This document shows positions 43,213 through 50,175 of a DNA stretch of 64,000 nucleotides, in pieces (position 1 is the first letter of the stretch; the number at the start of each line of letters is the position of its first letter). Origin of the DNA: Erythrobacter sp. 3-20A1M. GTDB lineage: Bacteria; Pseudomonadota; Alphaproteobacteria; Sphingomonadales; Sphingomonadaceae. The notes under the pieces are model-generated. The model ran no database searches, was not told the DNA's origin, and was given only the letters and a program-made list of their open reading frames with translations. Location of the stretch: positions 744,001-808,000 of the forward strand of contig NZ_CP045200.1 of assembly GCF_018636735.1 (NCBI RefSeq). The letters run 5' to 3'. A program made the position numbers and the translations under genes.

Positions 43213-45609
43213 ATGGTACGTCAAGAAAGACCATTTGCCAGGAACCGCCTGGCAGCCAGGGCCGCGCGCTTCTCCGACGCTCGCCCCCGCATTGCACCCC
43301 TTCGCAAGGGGGGCGGTGCCCTGGCGACCATGTTCGGCACGACGATATGTCTCTCGCTCGGTGCCTGCACTGGGGGCGGCATCGGATCTACCCCTCCCCC
43401 CCCATCCGGAGCCATGGCTTCGGACCCGATTGCCGCCCCACCTTTTTCGACCGTACCCGCACCCGCACCCGCTCCGACGCCAACCCCGGCCCCGCCGCCG
43501 ACCGAGGACGAGCCGCCGCCCGTATCCGGCGTTCGCCCCTCCGGCAACGTCGCGATGCGCTCCGCCGAGGATGACGCCGAATACCGCGAGAACTATCTCG
43601 CCGCGGAGCTGATCAACGCTCTCTATGCGCTGGACAATGGTTGGGACGGCAGCGGCGTTCTCGTCGGGGTTCTGGACGAGGGGGTGGAGGAAACCTTCGA
43701 ACTCGAAGGGCAGATTTCCAACCTGAGCAAGGATTTCGGAGGCATCCGCGACGACGGCGTGCTCACACCTCACGAGTCCCTCGGCGGCGACAATTCCGAC
43801 CACGGCACGCGGGTCGCCTCGATCATTGCCGCACGCAATGACGGGAACGGCATCCAGGGTATCGCCCCCGGTGCCAGCATCGTGGTGTTGCGAAGCGACG
43901 TAGAGAATATCGACACGGGGACATCCACCGTCGGCTTCAACAGCCACGAAGCGCTGCGCTATGCCGGCGAAAACGGCGTGTTGATCGTCAACCGTTCGAT
44001 CGCCAAGGCCAATCCGGATATCTCGAACAGGCTGATGCAGGATGCCGTCAACGCGTATCGGCAGATGGGCGGCCTTGTCGTCAATGCCGCTGGCAATACA
44101 GGCGGTGCGAACCCCAACGACGCGATCGATCTGACCCCTGAAAACGCGGAAGGGTGGCTGTTCGCGGTCGCCCTCGACCCGAACGGCCCGGGTTACGAAC
44201 TGGCCAGCTATTCCAACCGTTGCGGCACGGCCATGGACAGGTGCGTGGCGGGCGTGGGCACAAGCGCCACCACCGATGTGTCGGGCAATATCGTCAGCTT
44301 TTCGGGGACCAGTGCCGCAGCGCCGCAAGTGTCCGGGCTGGCCGCACTCATCCTGCACAAATGGCCGCATCTGACGGGTGTCGACGCCGGCAATGTCATT
44401 CTCGCTACCGCGCGCGACATCGGTGAAGCGGGCGTGGATCCGGTTTTCGGACACGGTCTCATCGACGTGGAGGCCGCCCTTTCCCCGATCAATCCGACCC
44501 TGTCGAACGGTACCACCGTCAGTTCCCTCGGCTCTGCCTCGTTGATCCTGCCTGCCGCGATCGGAGACGGGGCGGATGGTTCGCTGGCGGCCGCGATTTC
44601 CGATGTCACGCTTGTCGATGCGTTCGGGCGCGATTATCAGGCCGACCTTTCCGGCTTTGTGCGGCACGCGGCGAGCGGGTCCGCTGGTGTTTTGGGGCCC
44701 CGGTTCGACGCGATGACCCAGACCGGTGACGCCGCCTTTCGGATAGAAGGCGCAGGGGTCCAGATCGGCTACCTCGCCGGGAATCGGTCCGATTTTTCGG
44801 CCCGTATCGGTAGCAGGATCACGGACGGGCGGATCGCCGTTCCCCTGCGAAGCGTCGGCGGCACGGTCACCGCGGATTATCGGAACGGGCGGTATATCGA
44901 TGCCACGATGTTCGGCCGGGCGGCGAGCCCCGATGCACTCGATGCCTATATGCCGGGCAGTGGGATCGGGCTGGCCTATCGCCGGCCGCTGGGAATCTTT
45001 CGGGTCGGCGCCTCGGTGCGGTCGGCCAGGACGGGCGAAGGCGAGGCAACGGCGCTTCTCGCCTCGCTCGGCAAGGATCGGACCGTGTTCGAGGTCGGGA
45101 TGCTGACCGAACGCGGTACGCTGTTCGGGACCCCAACGGGGTCCGGCTCACTGCGCTTCGGCGACGGGGCGCGAACCATCTTCGCCCAGCTGTCCAGCGA
45201 GATTTCCATCGGCAGCTGGGAGCTGGCGGCGCATGGGAGCATCGGCAGCACGCGGCTCGCGCTCGGACCGGAGACGGTGGTGACCGATGCCACCGCGATC
45301 ACCACGGGCCGATTCGGGATCGATCTCAGCGGTGACGTATTGGGCGGGCGGATGCGCATCGGCCTGGCGCAACCCCTCGTGGCGCTATCCGGCACCGGCC
45401 TGGTTACGGTCGGGTCGGGCTTCGACCGCACCAGCCGTTCGCTCCGCTTCATCACGCGCGAGATCGATCTTTCGGGCGAAATCGCCCCGCGCATCATGTT
45501 CGGCTACGAAAGAGCGGGTCCGCGCTCCAGCATGCGTCTGGGGCTGGAAAGCCGTCCTGACGGGCGGGACAACACCGTCGTTGCCAACTGGCGTTTGCGC
45601 TTTCGCTAG
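43213..45609 (+). CDS. S8 subtilisin-like serine protease autotransporter
   Basis: A surface protease of about 798 residues. The N-terminus has a long basic leader (ARNRLAARAARF...RKGGG), then a hydrophobic segment ending in the lipobox-like CLSLGAC, and a Pro/Thr linker. The S8 catalytic triad is visible: Asp in GVLVGVLDEGV, His in SDHGTRVASI and Ser in FSGTSAAAPQVSGL, with oxyanion Asn in VVNAAGNTGG. The last ~270 residues are rich in alternating beta strands and end in WRLRFR, as in autotransporter barrels. The start is uncertain: TTG 43153, ATG 43213 and ATG 43330 are all in frame. I prefer 43213 because it keeps the basic region before the hydrophobic core. Confidence 0.88.
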   Translation: MVRQERPFARNRLAARAARFSDARPRIAPLRKGGGALATMFGTTICLSLGACTGGGIGSTPPPPSGAMASDPIAAPPFSTVPAPAPAPTPTPAPPPTEDEPPPVSGVRPSGNVAMRSAEDDAEYRENYLAAELINALYALDNGWDGSGVLVGVLDEGVEETFELEGQISNLSKDFGGIRDDGVLTPHESLGGDNSDHGTRVASIIAARNDGNGIQGIAPGASIVVLRSDVENIDTGTSTVGFNSHEALRYAGENGVLIVNRSIAKANPDISNRLMQDAVNAYRQMGGLVVNAAGNTGGANPNDAIDLTPENAEGWLFAVALDPNGPGYELASYSNRCGTAMDRCVAGVGTSATTDVSGNIVSFSGTSAAAPQVSGLAALILHKWPHLTGVDAGNVILATARDIGEAGVDPVFGHGLIDVEAALSPINPTLSNGTTVSSLGSASLILPAAIGDGADGSLAAAISDVTLVDAFGRDYQADLSGFVRHAASGSAGVLGPRFDAMTQTGDAAFRIEGAGVQIGYLAGNRSDFSARIGSRITDGRIAVPLRSVGGTVTADYRNGRYIDATMFGRAASPDALDAYMPGSGIGLAYRRPLGIFRVGASVRSARTGEGEATALLASLGKDRTVFEVGMLTERGTLFGTPTGSGSLRFGDGARTIFAQLSSEISIGSWELAAHGSIGSTRLALGPETVVTDATAITTGRFGIDLSGDVLGGRMRIGLAQPLVALSGTGLVTVGSGFDRTSRSLRFITREIDLSGEIAPRIMFGYERAGPRSSMRLGLESRPDGRDNTVVANWRLRFR

Positions 45610-45638
45610 CAAAGGAGGGCGGTGGTCGTGCTTTGGAC

Positions 45639-46022
45639 ATGTTAACGAGTGCCAACGATAATGGGAGGTCGAACCCCGGATTGGCCGGGCGGGGACCACG
45701 CATGCTCGACAGCGACCGGCCGACGGACGGCGAGAATGGCGATGCCATCGCCTCGCTGCGTCCACACTACGCGGCTTTCAAGGAACAGGCGCTGGGCCAG
45801 TTGGCGCTGTGTTGCCACAACCCGTCGGACGGGGATTACGAATCACTCGAAGAATTGCGGACGCTGATGCACATGCTGGCAGGCACGGCGACGCTGTTCG
45901 GCGAACCGGCGGTCGGCGATCTCGCCTCCGAACTGGACGAAGCGCTCACGCGACGCCGCGAACCCGTTCGCGCCTCGCTCGAAAGGGCGCGATCGGGCTT
46001 AGCGGACCTGCGCCGGTCATAA
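45639..46022 (+). CDS. Orphan histidine phosphotransfer (Hpt) domain protein
   Basis: A 127-residue protein. The Hpt helix contains ELRTLMHMLAGTATLFGEPAVGDLASELDEAL, with the phosphorylatable His in the H-x-L-A-G-T-A motif. The N-terminal 35 residues are polar and disordered. AGGAGGG lies upstream, about 20 bases from the ATG at 45639 and nearer to an in-frame TTG at 45633, so the TTG may be used. It stands 29 bases after the S8 autotransporter and may be cotranscribed with it. A phosphorelay with the nearby LuxR-type regulator is possible but untested. Confidence 0.8.
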   Translation: MLTSANDNGRSNPGLAGRGPRMLDSDRPTDGENGDAIASLRPHYAAFKEQALGQLALCCHNPSDGDYESLEELRTLMHMLAGTATLFGEPAVGDLASELDEALTRRREPVRASLERARSGLADLRRS

Positions 46023-46080: not shown

Positions 46081-48783
46081 TCAGAAGCTGAAGCCGGCCC
46101 CGGCGCTGAACCCGCTATTGCCGCGGGTATCCACCGTCGCCCCGGCCTTCACCACGCCGCGACCCTCGCTGAAGGTGGTGGACATGCCCAGCGCGAACGC
46201 CGTCTCGCCTTCGTAATGGGCGATGCCCGTCCCCACCATGGAGCGTCCGGCGGTGATCGTCTGCGGAATGCCCGAGACGGCCATGGCGCTGGCGGTGCCT
46301 GCCGACGCATCGCGGCGCGCCTCCTTCAGGTCGAAGTCGAGCTGCGCGATCCCCGCCTGCAGATCGCCGAAGCGCAGATCGGTGTAGGCACGCGAATCGG
46401 CCATCGCGGCGGCCAGGCTGTTCTGGACCTGGCCGAGGTTCACCGCGTCGTTCGCCCGGGTTCCAGCAGCGACGTTGTGGAGCGCCACCGGCGCAGTCGC
46501 GTCCGCTCCGACCAATGCGACATCGTTGGTCACCGTGCCGCCATTGCTCATGGCCGGATCGTCGGGGTCCGAATATTGCACCGCGACCACGGTGCTACCC
46601 GCGATATTGTTGTTCAGCGCTGCGATATTGGCGGTGTTCTGGTCGATATCGGTACGATTGCTCGCCACCCGGTCGTTCGTCGCAGCGAGCTGCGATCCGT
46701 TGACGGCGTCCGTGGACCCCGCCGCAAGCGCGCCGTCGGCAACATTGGTCATCCTGACCGGCGCATCGCCCGCCCCGATCAGCGCCGCCGTGTTCGTCGG
46801 CGTGGTGCTGGCGACGGTCGGATCGGTGTCGGACACGTAGCCGAGCGGGACATTGGCGAGCTGGTTCTGCACCGATGTGAGCTGGGTCGTATTGTCGGTT
46901 ACCCGCGCATCTATCGATGTCACCGAGCTGTTGAGATTGTCGATGTCGCCCTCGTTAACGGCGACCCGCGTGTCGAGGTCAGCTATGTCACCTTCGTTTA
47001 CGGTCACGCGCCCATCCAGATTAGAGATGTCGCCTTCGTTCACCGTCACGCGACCGTCCAGACTGGCGATATCGCCTTCGTTCACCGTCACGCGCCCATC
47101 CAGACTGGCAATGTCCCCCTCGTTCACCGTCACGCGGCCATCCAGGTTCGCAATATCCCCCTCGTTCGTGGTCACGCGAGTATCGAGGTTGGCGATGTCG
47201 CCTTCATTGACCGTCACGCGATCGTCGAGGCCGTCTATCGCATCGCTGTTGGCTGCGACCGCCTGGTTGGTGGCAAACAGCTGCGATCCGTTCACCGCCT
47301 CGCCCGAGGTGGCGCTCAGCTCGCCATCCGCGACGTTGCCGACGGTCGTGCCGCCAGCGCCATCCAGCGTCAGCGAGGTTCGCGTCGCATCGTCGTAGAG
47401 CACCGCCAGCGCGTTCCCGCTGCCCGCGTCGCTGAGCGAGGCGATGGCATCGGCATTGGCCTGGATCCCCGCCGTATTGGCGTCGACCTGCTGATTGGTC
47501 GCGAACAGCTGGCTGCCGTTGACCGCATCGGCAGAACCTGCGGCGAGAGCGCCCGGCCCCACATTGCTGAGCGTGACGGTGCCAGGGTCCGCACCGATCA
47601 AGGCGGCCCGGTTGGTCGGAACCGGGCTGGCGACGGCGGGATCGCCATTGCTGACATAGCCGATCGGCACATTGTCGACCGCCGATTGCAGGTCTGCGAT
47701 GTCCGTCGTGTTCTGCGTCACCCGCGTATCGATCGTGGTGACCCGTCCATCGAGATCGGCGATGTCGCCCTCCGCCGCGGTCACGCGACCATCCAGTCCA
47801 TCGATCCCGTCGGCGTTGGCTGCCACCTGCTGATTGGTCGCGAAAAGTTGCGAGCCGTTGACCGCATCGGTCGAACCCGCGCTCACGGTGCCATCCGCGA
47901 GGTTGGTGACCGTCGTCCCTTGCGCACCGGCGAGGGTCACGCTGGCCTGCGCCGGGCCATCATATTGGACGCCATTGCCAAGTGCCGCCTGGAGCGCGTC
48001 GACCGCGCCCTGTACCTGACCCACCGTTGCCGCATCCGTGGCTTGCGTCCCCGGCGCGACATTGGTGATCTGGCGCAGGCTGCCGGGCGCGCCGACCGAA
48101 ACCGATCCGACCGAGCTGTAGGTGCCAGGCAGACCCGGTGCGACGTAGCCGACCAGTGCGCCACGATCGGCGAGCGAGCCGTTGCCCAGCGCAACGCTGT
48201 TGGCGGCCGTCGCGCTGGCATTTGTGCCAAGGGCAATGGCCCCGGTCGCCCCGACGGCGGTGCTGGCATTGTTACCGAAAGCGATCGCGTCGAGCTCACC
48301 GGCCGATGCCGCCTGCCCGTCGCCCAATCCGGAGATCTGGTTGCCACCGATGGCGAGGCCAGCTTCTTCGTTCAGGGCATAACCGTCCGCCGTCAGGTTA
48401 CAATCTGCACCGGGGGCGAGCAGCGTGCCGCTGGTATCCGCCACCTGCAGCGAGATCGGATCGCCATTTGCGTAACCTTCCAGGGTATCCGCAGCACCGA
48501 TCTGGACATCGTCGAGAGTGAGGATCGGGTTGCCGAGGACGGAGACGTTCAACAGCGCACCGTAGAGGTTCTCCACCGCGGTCGCTGTGGGCACCGCGAC
48601 ATCGCCGACGATATCGGTGACCGCCGACGGGTCGAGGCTGATCCCGGTACATACGTCGACCACGGGCTGAAGAGCCTGCGCCTTCGCCGAGGTGGTGAGC
48701 CGCGGCGGCGCACCGCCCGCCATCACGACCGACGCGGTCGCCAGCAGGGATATGCGAATATAGGTTCTTTTACTTAGGTTCAC
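46081..48783 (-). CDS. YadA-type trimeric autotransporter adhesin
   Basis: A surface adhesin of about 900 residues (type V-c secretion). A signal sequence ends near SAKAQA. The head has YadA-like repeats (AIALGTNASATAANSVALG). Several neck-like motifs of the type AVNGSQLFATNQ are interleaved with coiled-coil stalk segments, and the C-terminus is the YadA anchor of about 90 residues (QVQNSLAAAMADSRAYTDLRF, ending SGFSAGAGFSF). The stalk contains seven 14-residue repeats. I prefer the GTG at 48783, which has GGAGCGA just upstream; an ATG at 48795 lies in frame but has no good site. An intrinsic terminator follows. The AT-rich intergenic region is shared with the divergent PAS protein. Confidence 0.92.
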   Translation of the reverse strand: MNLSKRTYIRISLLATASVVMAGGAPPRLTTSAKAQALQPVVDVCTGISLDPSAVTDIVGDVAVPTATAVENLYGALLNVSVLGNPILTLDDVQIGAADTLEGYANGDPISLQVADTSGTLLAPGADCNLTADGYALNEEAGLAIGGNQISGLGDGQAASAGELDAIAFGNNASTAVGATGAIALGTNASATAANSVALGNGSLADRGALVGYVAPGLPGTYSSVGSVSVGAPGSLRQITNVAPGTQATDAATVGQVQGAVDALQAALGNGVQYDGPAQASVTLAGAQGTTVTNLADGTVSAGSTDAVNGSQLFATNQQVAANADGIDGLDGRVTAAEGDIADLDGRVTTIDTRVTQNTTDIADLQSAVDNVPIGYVSNGDPAVASPVPTNRAALIGADPGTVTLSNVGPGALAAGSADAVNGSQLFATNQQVDANTAGIQANADAIASLSDAGSGNALAVLYDDATRTSLTLDGAGGTTVGNVADGELSATSGEAVNGSQLFATNQAVAANSDAIDGLDDRVTVNEGDIANLDTRVTTNEGDIANLDGRVTVNEGDIASLDGRVTVNEGDIASLDGRVTVNEGDISNLDGRVTVNEGDIADLDTRVAVNEGDIDNLNSSVTSIDARVTDNTTQLTSVQNQLANVPLGYVSDTDPTVASTTPTNTAALIGAGDAPVRMTNVADGALAAGSTDAVNGSQLAATNDRVASNRTDIDQNTANIAALNNNIAGSTVVAVQYSDPDDPAMSNGGTVTNDVALVGADATAPVALHNVAAGTRANDAVNLGQVQNSLAAAMADSRAYTDLRFGDLQAGIAQLDFDLKEARRDASAGTASAMAVSGIPQTITAGRSMVGTGIAHYEGETAFALGMSTTFSEGRGVVKAGATVDTRGNSGFSAGAGFSF
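46936..47229 (-). repeat. Seven tandem 42-bp repeats (14-residue coiled-coil units) in the adhesin stalk
   Basis: Seven consecutive units of the form LDGRVTVNEGDIAx, most differing by one to three residues (LDDR, LDTR and LDGR variants). The period of 14 residues is two heptads, so the units extend the trimeric coiled coil. At DNA level the units are near-identical 42-mers, a natural place for copy-number change by slippage or recombination, and also for assembly collapse. Confidence 0.9.
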
Positions 48784-48807
48784 GTCTCGCTCCATTTGTT
48801 CGTACTG

Positions 48808-48821
48808 GTCAGTATTCTGAC
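48808..48821. promoter_or_regulatory. Operator-like inverted repeat upstream of the adhesin
   Basis: GTCAG-TATT-CTGAC is a perfect 5-bp inverted repeat about 25 bases upstream of the preferred adhesin start, a typical position for a repressor site. Which protein binds is unknown; the divergent PAS protein with its Phd/YefM-like domain is the nearest candidate. Confidence 0.3.
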
Positions 48822-49011
48822 TGGAGCGCTGAGATTATGTGTGCGGAATTGATCTCCTTGTAATGGACGTGTGAATTCGAATTACATAAAATGCATCATC
48901 TTGCCCGAACAGCGCCAATCCCGCGCATTTCAGCTGAAAATCTGGCGAGTCCTTGGCGCATTTGGCACGATTTCGGGCATCCGAAGGTCGATCGGCTTAA
49001 CGCATAAAGGG

Positions 49012-49042
49012 CGCATTTTCGCGCCGAATTCCGCAAAATGCG
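49012..49042. promoter_or_regulatory. Inverted repeat in the adhesin/PAS intergenic region
   Basis: CGCATTTT (49012-49019) and AAAATGCG (49035-49042) form perfect 8-bp arms separated by 15 bases. It is located about 120 bases upstream of the PAS gene. The wide spacing and the AT-rich inner half suggest a protein-binding site rather than a terminator. Function unproven. Confidence 0.35.
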
Positions 49043-49161
49043 AAATTAAGCAAACCGCGAAAGCAGACGTTAACGAACGGAATTTTACTTTATATTCTAG
49101 AATCTTGTGAGCTTGGGGGGCGAGCGATGCAAGCGATGTTAGCGCTATCGGGGGTAGAGAA

Positions 49162-50175
49162 ATGGGTTTCAAGAGCCGCATTCCGACCAATAAAATCGCG
49201 CCTTTTCGCGAGCCGCCGACCGCCGGTGCACCTGCGCCGACCCATGTGATTGCCGATTCCGGCGATACGGCGGAGTGCGGCGTCCCGGCCGCGAATTTCG
49301 TAAGATGTTTTGCCAAATGGCGGGACGAGGCGCTTAAAAAGCCGGTCTTCGTAACTAATCACGGGCGGGTTACCCATGCGCTGGTCGGGATCGACCAGTT
49401 CGTCAGCATGACCGAGGCACCCACTACGGCGGAGGTGGAAGCCAATCCGTTCGAGCTTGCGGAGTGGATCGACGAGGCCGTGATCATTTGCGACAAGCAC
49501 TTGGTCGTCCAGACCATGAACCGGGTCGCCTCCGCCACCTGCTGCATATCCGCCCCGCAATGCGTGGGGCGCAACCTCTACGAGTGTCTGCCGCAGCTTC
49601 GCGGCACACTGTACGAGGTGAACCTGATGCGGACGGTCGAGGCGAACGAACCGACCTCGGCGGACATTCCATCGCCGCTGCGACAGGATGGCTGGCTGCG
49701 CTTGCAGACCTTCCCGCTGCACGGATGCAACGTGCTGATGTTCCGCGACATCACCGAGGAGGTGGAGCGTCATCGCCTGGCCGACGTAAAGGCCGCGCTG
49801 ATAGAAGCGATGGCGGTTCATAACGCCATCGGTTACGTTCGCGTCGGCGTCAGCGGAATGATCGAGCGTGTGGACCAACCTTTCTGCGATCTGCTGGGCG
49901 TTCCGGAAGAGCGATTATGCGGTGCGAGGCTGGTCGATCTCGTCAGCCGCGAAACGCGGGTGGCGTTCAAGACCGACCTAGAGGAAGCCATGGCCGGTCA
50001 CGGCTCGCGGAGGGTCGTCGCAAGGTTTCTGACCAACCGCGGAACGACAGACGATCTGCTGGCCGCGATCGTTCAGCTGCGAGGGGCCTACGGCGCCGAA
50101 GGGGCGGTGATCCTGCTGACCTCCGTCAATCTGGCTTCGGATCGCGCGCCGGACGGGCACATCGGCTGGCACTGA
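49162..50175 (+). CDS. PAS-domain protein with a Phd/YefM antitoxin-like N-terminal domain
   Basis: A 337-residue soluble protein. Residues of about 39-85 (VPAANFVRCFAKWRDEALKK, then PVFVTNHGRVTHALV and IDQFVSM) resemble the Phd/YefM DNA-binding antitoxin fold. A PAS domain spans about 98-198 (EWIDEAVIICDKHLVVQTMN to NVLMFRDITEEVERH) and a second one about 215-325 (IGYVRVGVSGMIERVDQPF). No kinase, GGDEF, EAL or toxin domain is attached. ATG 49162 is preceded by GGGGGTAGAGAA. A role as a signal-responsive regulator of the divergent adhesin gene is inferred from position and domains. Cys residues 127, 128, 134 and 142 in PAS-1 might bind a cofactor. Confidence 0.75.
   Translation: MGFKSRIPTNKIAPFREPPTAGAPAPTHVIADSGDTAECGVPAANFVRCFAKWRDEALKKPVFVTNHGRVTHALVGIDQFVSMTEAPTTAEVEANPFELAEWIDEAVIICDKHLVVQTMNRVASATCCISAPQCVGRNLYECLPQLRGTLYEVNLMRTVEANEPTSADIPSPLRQDGWLRLQTFPLHGCNVLMFRDITEEVERHRLADVKAALIEAMAVHNAIGYVRVGVSGMIERVDQPFCDLLGVPEERLCGARLVDLVSRETRVAFKTDLEEAMAGHGSRRVVARFLTNRGTTDDLLAAIVQLRGAYGAEGAVILLTSVNLASDRAPDGHIGWH

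Follow-up and report, generated by a model that had tools for sequence, protein, structure and literature searches.

The window analysed here, a stretch of 64,000 nucleotides from the genome of Erythrobacter sp. 3-20A1M, contains a gene for a protein that we call the regulator after its predicted role, and a trimeric autotransporter adhesin gene divergent from it (Table 1). An open reading frame spans exactly the coordinates given for the regulator gene, and its ATG is preceded by a purine-rich, Shine-Dalgarno-like stretch, as judged by eye. The gene's neighbours in the window are the adhesin gene and a GH15 gene, and no YadA_anchor match other than the adhesin was found in this genome at E ≤ 1e-4. 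Beyond the adhesin lie a small Hpt-like gene (45633-46019; 23.2 bits, below cut-off) and a subtilase-family gene whose long C-terminal part is unassigned (43555-45606). A 262-aa frame, open antisense to the regulator gene (49090-49878, minus strand) and free of Pfam matches, is probably a shadow ORF.

Table 1. Features of the regulator locus, with positions in the window; operators and target gene are predictions
Feature	Position	Strand	Basis
Trimeric autotransporter adhesin, 904 aa, predicted target gene	46081..48795	-	YadA_stalk, YadA_head and YadA_anchor over cut-off
Divergent promoter region between adhesin and regulator, 366 bp	48796..49161		Intergenic; ORFs in the gap without Pfam match
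Third, weaker predicted operator TTACATAAAATGCATCA, adhesin side	48882..48898		12.0 bits, eighth in window; 87 bp from adhesin start codon
Predicted operator TTCCGCAAAATGCGAAA	49029..49045		20.9 bits, top in the 64-kb window; next best 14.8
Second, weaker predicted operator TTAAGCAAACCGCGAAA, abutting the first	49046..49062		13.0 bits, sixth in window
Phd-PAS-PAS regulator gene, 337 aa	49162..50175	+	ORF
Phd/YefM-type DNA-binding/dimerisation domain, residues 37-85	49270..49416	+	Pfam, family profile, profile-profile comparison; R48 invariant in 44/44
First PAS domain, residues 104-201	49471..49764	+	PAS_4, 49 bits; 29/29 members
Second PAS domain, residues 216-312	49807..50097	+	Pfam PAS and sensory_box

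An antitoxin-type domain joined to tandem PAS domains

The PAS domains are recognised directly by Pfam: PAS_4 passes its cut-off of 23.1 bits, PAS at residues 231-284 scores 26.4 bits against a cut-off of 22.6, and the sensory_box match (18.7 bits) stays under its own. No His or Cys column common to at least 25 of 44 copies was found in these domains, and a heme or a cysteine-linked chromophore is therefore not indicated. The PhdYeFM_antitox match at residues 49-105 reached 25.0 bits (E 1.6e-5), short of the 29.8 set as curated cut-off; when the whole genome was searched with PF02604, the regulator gene scored 28.1 bits (E 4.7e-6), also just under it. No HTH match was obtained for the protein with Pfam or NCBIfam at E ≤ 1.

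Despite this sub-cut-off score for the single sequence, the Phd assignment is secured because the relatives and a profile-profile comparison agree. In the family alignment, made from 29 sequences of the 30 loci L005-L034 and not from all 43 copies described below (L034, for which only an ORF fragment was recovered, was omitted, and its genome, G270, was counted later as L098), PF02604 matched at E ≤ 0.01 in 20 members and PAS_4 in all. Among isolated N-terminal segments, PF02604 was the sole family match, present in 15 of 18 members. Comparison of profiles with five stand-alone antitoxin-like proteins and E. coli YefM gave a probability of 98.6 and an E-value of 5.1e-16 (hhalign), and approximately the first 78 positions of the full-family profile matched free antitoxin-like ORFs of 93-94 aa in other alphaproteobacteria (best E 1.5e-16). 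Judged from these sequence comparisons, the homology of the N-terminal domain to Phd/YefM is clear.

Structure prediction with AlphaFold, run with two rows only (the window's protein and its relative from Tsuneonella flava), gave models of too low confidence to support the fold, with a mean pLDDT of 36.5 for the whole protein and of 48.4 for the N-terminal domain alone, the latter in the order helix, strand, strand, helix, which we take to be the order expected of Phd. A PDB profile search with this domain returned RelB, YefM and Phd chains at weak E-values (0.0018, 0.13 and 0.18-0.79, respectively); designed repeat proteins topped the same search and were set aside as an artefact of a short repeated match. 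R48 is the one residue invariant in all 44 copies, and 42 of them have Arg or Lys at residue 69. The YefM residues R10 and R31 are required for DNA binding, as stated in the available part of PMC4803016; R10 aligns one column before R48 of the regulator, and R31 aligns with a variable column.

The earlier note had read the N-terminus as a Phd/YefM-like domain attached to two PAS domains and not paired with a toxin; the domain assignment holds at the level of profiles, although the single-sequence score of the first domain stays under its cut-off. A linker and the PAS domains follow from residue ~85-103, where an antitoxin has its toxin-neutralising tail, and no toxin gene was found adjoining. 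The HMM comparison that the note had proposed for the N-terminal part found similarity to PhdYeFM, and the disordered N-terminus it had considered would apply at most to the unconserved residues 1-36, outside the Phd-like domain, to which disorder may be limited.

Distribution and neighbouring genes

At E ≤ 1e-20, the family profile found 43 copies in 39 of the 296 genomes of the order, and genomes with no match at this threshold are those referred to below as lacking the gene. In each copy the match starts at or before position 13 of the 298-position profile and extends to position 268 or beyond. All 39 carrier genomes belong to a single taxonomic family, the window's own, and they fall in 11 of 80 genera. 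Among 385 genomes of the class, five of them from this family, the Phd and PAS parts were joined, among the matches listed, only in two own-family genomes, and in the other genomes the two parts matched separate proteins, again among the matches listed. At phylum level, five of 299 genomes matched at E ≤ 1e-25, every one of them from the same family. The relative in T. flava is 67% identical over the aligned protein. Within the sampled genomes, Phd-PAS-PAS is thus a conserved but patchy architecture of this one family. Three genomes (G039, G185 and G225) carry two or three copies, and the extra ones (L070, L071, L073 and L104) have no adhesion gene adjoining.

The context survey covered 44 copies, namely the 43 of the order and that of T. 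flava. A pair of Tad-pilus-type minor pilin genes, tadE-tadG, adjoins 19 of them, a trimeric autotransporter gene eight (the window's included), a tadG fragment one, and neither gene type the remaining 16. Five of the eight linked autotransporters score strongly with a local HMM, and the three weak ones were then confirmed by YadA_anchor over its cut-off; of the 12 YadA_anchor genes in the set's seven genomes that have a linked adhesin, seven are the linked ones. The gene rpoD adjoins 11 of the 16 copies without an adhesion neighbour and also three of the eight copies with an adhesin. The tadG-like fragment, located directly 3' of the regulator in G271 (L067:9564-9965), scores 43.8 bits with a local TadG HMM, has no Pfam match, and is perhaps what is left of a decayed tadE-tadG pair.

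A link of this kind could also be due to chance or to an inherited neighbourhood without function, with the motif described below as a by-product of AT-rich promoters. That 16 of 44 copies have neither adhesion gene type adjoining and that 12 of the 19 tadE-linked copies come from one genus (g6) would fit such an explanation. Against it, two unrelated adhesion gene types are involved, and the position of tadE-tadG relative to the regulator takes four forms: the regulator precedes the pair in L066 and L068 and follows it in genus g6, while the two are convergent in L069 and L072 and divergent in L078, L079 and L095. The well-supported branches of a maximum-likelihood tree built from the 44 copies require no fewer than five changes of adhesin context and four of tadE-tadG context; clustering of the adhesin label is weak, as 31 of 500 shuffles gave a value as low, and the adhesin rows L083 and L106 are long branches. 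These changes point to an adhesion link that was either gained repeatedly or kept against repeated loss, and either way to function. Together with the support for the motif from dinucleotide-preserving shuffles and cross-trained matrices, they leave chance or mere inheritance a very improbable explanation.

Could the protein still be an antitoxin, with a Phd domain that represses and also neutralises a toxin encoded elsewhere, and PAS domains that control its stability? The clear homology to antitoxins would suit this role, as would the one other PF02604 locus in the genome, but PAS domains and not a toxin-binding tail come after the Phd domain. Moreover, the six ORFs of at least 35 aa that overlap the 366-bp region have no Pfam match at E ≤ 1, and the scan of neighbour proteins, which covered some of them, brought up no toxin family. 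We consider it extremely improbable that the protein is an antitoxin of this kind. The other PF02604 locus is the genome's one clear antitoxin of this family (L001, C1:1538066, 62.4 bits); it is followed by an ORF that presumably encodes a RelE/ParE-type toxin.

A palindrome common to adhesin and tadE promoters

A de novo motif search in 23 upstream regions yielded a palindrome scoring 276.8, compared with 220.8-225.3 in six shuffled sets. This run included five near-duplicate g6 rows, hence the separate training sets used afterwards. The eight adhesin/regulator intergenic regions alone gave the 17-bp palindrome TTnCGYAAWTTRCGnAA, and ten tadE upstream regions alone gave TTnCGCAAWTTGCGnAA; searches on the two promoter sets thus yield the same 17-bp palindrome. 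In sequence, the element can be read as a pair of TTRCGYAA palindromes placed end to end, an arrangement into which two adjacent dimers would fit.

Each set also predicted the sites of the other. With a matrix trained on the eight adhesin intergenic regions, 18 of the 19 linked tadE promoters exceeded the 95% quantile of 327 control promoters taken from the same loci, and 15 exceeded the 99% quantile; with one trained on the ten tadE promoters, six of the eight adhesin intergenic regions exceeded the 95% quantile and five the 99% quantile. The test windows differed in length: the tadE windows were 390 nt long, with 330 nt scanned for the seven non-g6 rows in this control-quantile test, the adhesin windows 330 or 400 nt (661 nt in the test of unlinked and no-gene adhesins described below), and the control promoters 300 nt. 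Dinucleotide shuffles of each region gave p < 0.05 for 18 of 19 linked tadE and five of eight linked adhesin regions, and no convincing site against shuffles was found in the adhesin intergenic regions L077, L083 and L099 or in the linked tadE promoter L069. Where no adhesion gene adjoins (16 copies), the region upstream of the regulator itself passes the 95% quantile of the controls in only five, so autoregulation is not general.

The window was scanned with a matrix trained only on tadE promoters of other genomes, which never saw this genome, and three of its top eight sites lie inside the 366-bp intergenic region (Table 1). When the whole 3.12-Mb genome was searched with the pattern itself, allowing one mismatch recovered just the best of them, at 49029-49045, and allowing two recovered ten sites, compared with six for the reversed pattern. 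This pattern search is partly dependent, as the intergenic region is itself one training row, whereas the matrix scan is independent.

The site tends to occur where the gene occurs. Judged against shuffles, tadE regions carry a site in 18 of 19 linked cases, in five of nine unlinked cases in carrier genomes, and in one of seven genomes without the gene. Pooled, this amounts to 23 of 28 tadE promoters with the gene and one of seven without (Fisher p 0.0017; treating genus g6 as one observation, 0.018); the unlinked tadE promoters on their own do not differ significantly from those of no-gene genomes (5/9 vs. 1/7, p 0.12). For adhesins, sites were found in five of eight linked genes, three of 19 unlinked genes in carrier genomes (all were tested) and none of the 20 tested out of 111 in no-gene genomes, chosen by going down the gene list and taking a single adhesin from each genome, with G233 skipped; pooled, eight of 27 compare with none of 20 (p 0.007). 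Two unlinked adhesins, in G257 and G271, carry strong sites (20.9 and 17.6 bits), and the regulators of these genomes have no intact adhesion gene adjoining, which fits a possible action at a distance.

Unlinked tadE promoters from eight genomes yielded de novo the palindrome YTRCGnRAWTYnCGYAR (90.9, compared with 69.1-74.7 in ten shuffles), in which the outer frame is that of the linked-promoter palindrome and the centre is altered; G248, one of the nine genomes with unlinked tadE, was omitted from this run, its TadG being a distant relative. The altered centre may reflect a changed specificity, a reading that leaves in the shared ancestry of the promoters. In the tadE promoters of the seven no-gene genomes, no palindrome rose above shuffles (62.7 vs. 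60.1-64.9).

The number of near-consensus sites is about one per genome in carriers and non-carriers alike, and such a site is present in 28 of 38 carriers and 20 of 38 non-carriers, the latter taken in handle order from the genomes without a match. The 38 carriers hold 45 such sites (20 for the reversed pattern) and the 38 non-carriers 50 (31 reversed). Genome-wide counts, tried as a test of the motif, do not separate the two groups and were rejected; because they are alike, the argument for the motif rests on where the sites lie. Promoters of adhesion genes or of the regulator account for eight of the 45 carrier sites (G080, G119, G185, G253, G257, G259, G268 and G278), most of which also served in training or testing.

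Such counts, and the good tadE site of G144, a genome without the gene, would be expected if a different regulator, with a more general role at surface genes, used the palindrome as its operator and the Phd-PAS-PAS protein were a non-binding neighbour or co-factor. Sites at adhesion promoters nevertheless track the presence of the gene, with one of seven tadE promoters and none of 20 adhesins carrying one where it is absent, and the site is nearly unique in this genome, unlike what a general regulon would show. The operon of YefM itself, moreover, is preceded by paired palindromes to which YefM binds, according to the available text of PMC4803016. We therefore think it unlikely that a general regulator, and not the Phd-PAS-PAS protein, acts at these sites.

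Proposed mode of action and relation to known systems

Building on the domain make-up, conservation, adhesion-gene linkage and common motif established computationally above, we consider it likely that the protein is a one-component transcription regulator whose Phd/YefM dimer binds palindromes, whose PAS domains sense a cue, and which controls the divergent adhesin at this locus. Its Phd/YefM domain would form a DNA-binding dimer recognising TTRCGYAA palindromes, and two of these, abutting, make up the 17-bp element TTnCGYAAWTTRCGnAA. Where an antitoxin has its toxin-neutralising tail, this protein has its two PAS domains, which would sense an intracellular cue, presumably a small molecule or redox state, and alter DNA binding. 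From the predicted sites at 48882, 49029 and 49046, the regulator would control the adhesin and probably also itself. We infer that the protein binds the motif and that PAS sensing modulates this binding; repression as the sign of control is assumed by analogy with Phd and YefM. The earlier note's broader proposal, a sensor-controlled DNA-binding protein built on an antitoxin scaffold, finds support in the profile-level domains, the lack of a toxin partner among the genes scanned, and a top-scoring palindrome within the 48.8-49.16 kb region in which it had suggested looking for DNA binding, a step that is predicted here from sequence.

More broadly, the regulator most likely controls surface attachment through a site common to its relatives. 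With somewhat less confidence, we propose that it represents an undescribed class of sphingomonad regulators in which tandem PAS domains have replaced the tail of a Phd/YefM antitoxin and which is devoted to surface attachment. Regulator and operator would have been kept while the controlled adhesin was swapped, an autotransporter in some genomes and Tad minor pilins in others, and the operator would have drifted with the regulator in the rpoD-adjacent lineage. If this is true, an antitoxin fold has been released from its toxin to serve as a ligand-controlled transcription factor, and toxin-antitoxin modules could in this way feed ordinary regulation. The locus would then offer a candidate switch for surface attachment in sphingomonads, with a concrete predicted site, target gene and key residue.

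The closest comparison is with the Phd/YefM antitoxins themselves (PF02604; YefM of E. coli and Phd of phage P1), which the regulator resembles in its N-terminal DNA-binding/dimerisation domain and in its paired palindromes. YefM and Phd bind operator DNA through their N-terminal domains, and the YefM operator consists of an L and an S palindrome with TGTACA cores 12 bp apart from centre to centre (PMC4803016, available sections). In contrast, the half-sites of the regulator are TTRCGYAA with centres 9 bp apart, and TGTACA is absent from the 366-bp gap. The regulator further differs from these antitoxins in that no adjoining toxin gene was found, in having two PAS domains instead of a toxin-binding tail, and in that its predicted targets are adhesion genes. 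It lacks the defining features of the antitoxin of a toxin-antitoxin system, while its DNA-binding half, we believe, works like one.

Other systems share single aspects of this design. PpsR is likewise a one-component regulator with tandem PAS domains, and its chain 4hh2 matches positions 60-277 of the family profile (E 7.5e-6). PpsR has an HTH; in the regulator, in which none was found, the N-terminal Phd/YefM domain is the predicted DNA-binding part. A PpsR-delta-HTH construct is named in the available part of PMC3949515. FG214, an HTH-PAS one-component switch titled as heme-binding (PMC13060918, available part), likewise fuses a PAS sensor to a DNA-binding domain, which is an HTH there and a Phd domain here; the PAS domains of the regulator also differ in the lack of a His/Cys column common to at least 25 of 44 copies.

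Among antitoxins, MqsA was reported to repress csgD and curli (PMC4894380), a role that is disputed (PMC6918082), as far as the available text of both papers goes, and it is thus likewise a DNA-binding protein of antitoxin type to which control of attachment, by way of a palindrome in a promoter, has been ascribed. Unlike the regulator, MqsA keeps its toxin. The fold family of MqsA differs from Phd/YefM, and we know of no sensor domain in it. In Panacea antitoxins, too, an antitoxin domain is joined to other modules, and the common domain has been hypothesised to be a sensor; these antitoxins work with a toxin, and PAS is unmentioned in the main text of the paper (PMC10440598), as far as the available version extends.

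Our literature search returned no description of a Phd-PAS-PAS architecture or of such an adhesin regulator in sphingomonads, although it left subscription journals largely uncovered and is weak evidence of absence. A word search of the available text of PMC7586716, PMC11218460, PMC10440598 and PMC10468136 likewise gave no such regulator. We regard it as a new variety of one-component regulator that most likely controls surface attachment.

Finally, some sites and genes outside the window bear on how far such a circuit might extend. Ten near-consensus sites were inspected; at the eight other than the G278 and G259 sites described next no adhesion link was seen, and a wider regulon is accordingly not claimed. 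The site TTGCGCGAATTGCGGAA recurs in nine g6 genomes and, in the one inspected (L176 about 2005, G268), lies inside a GTPase-like coding ORF, so its recurrence is probably due to coding conservation. In G278, a chemotaxis receptor gene has a perfect palindrome ~120 bp upstream (L174 about 2000), and in G259 a PAS-GGDEF-EAL gene has one with a single mismatch ~125 bp upstream (L179 about 2015); both genes are possible further targets. In G278, a PilZ-domain gene (L079:11537-11899, 32.8 bits) also follows the tadE-tadG pair beside the regulator, hinting that c-di-GMP may act in the same circuit.
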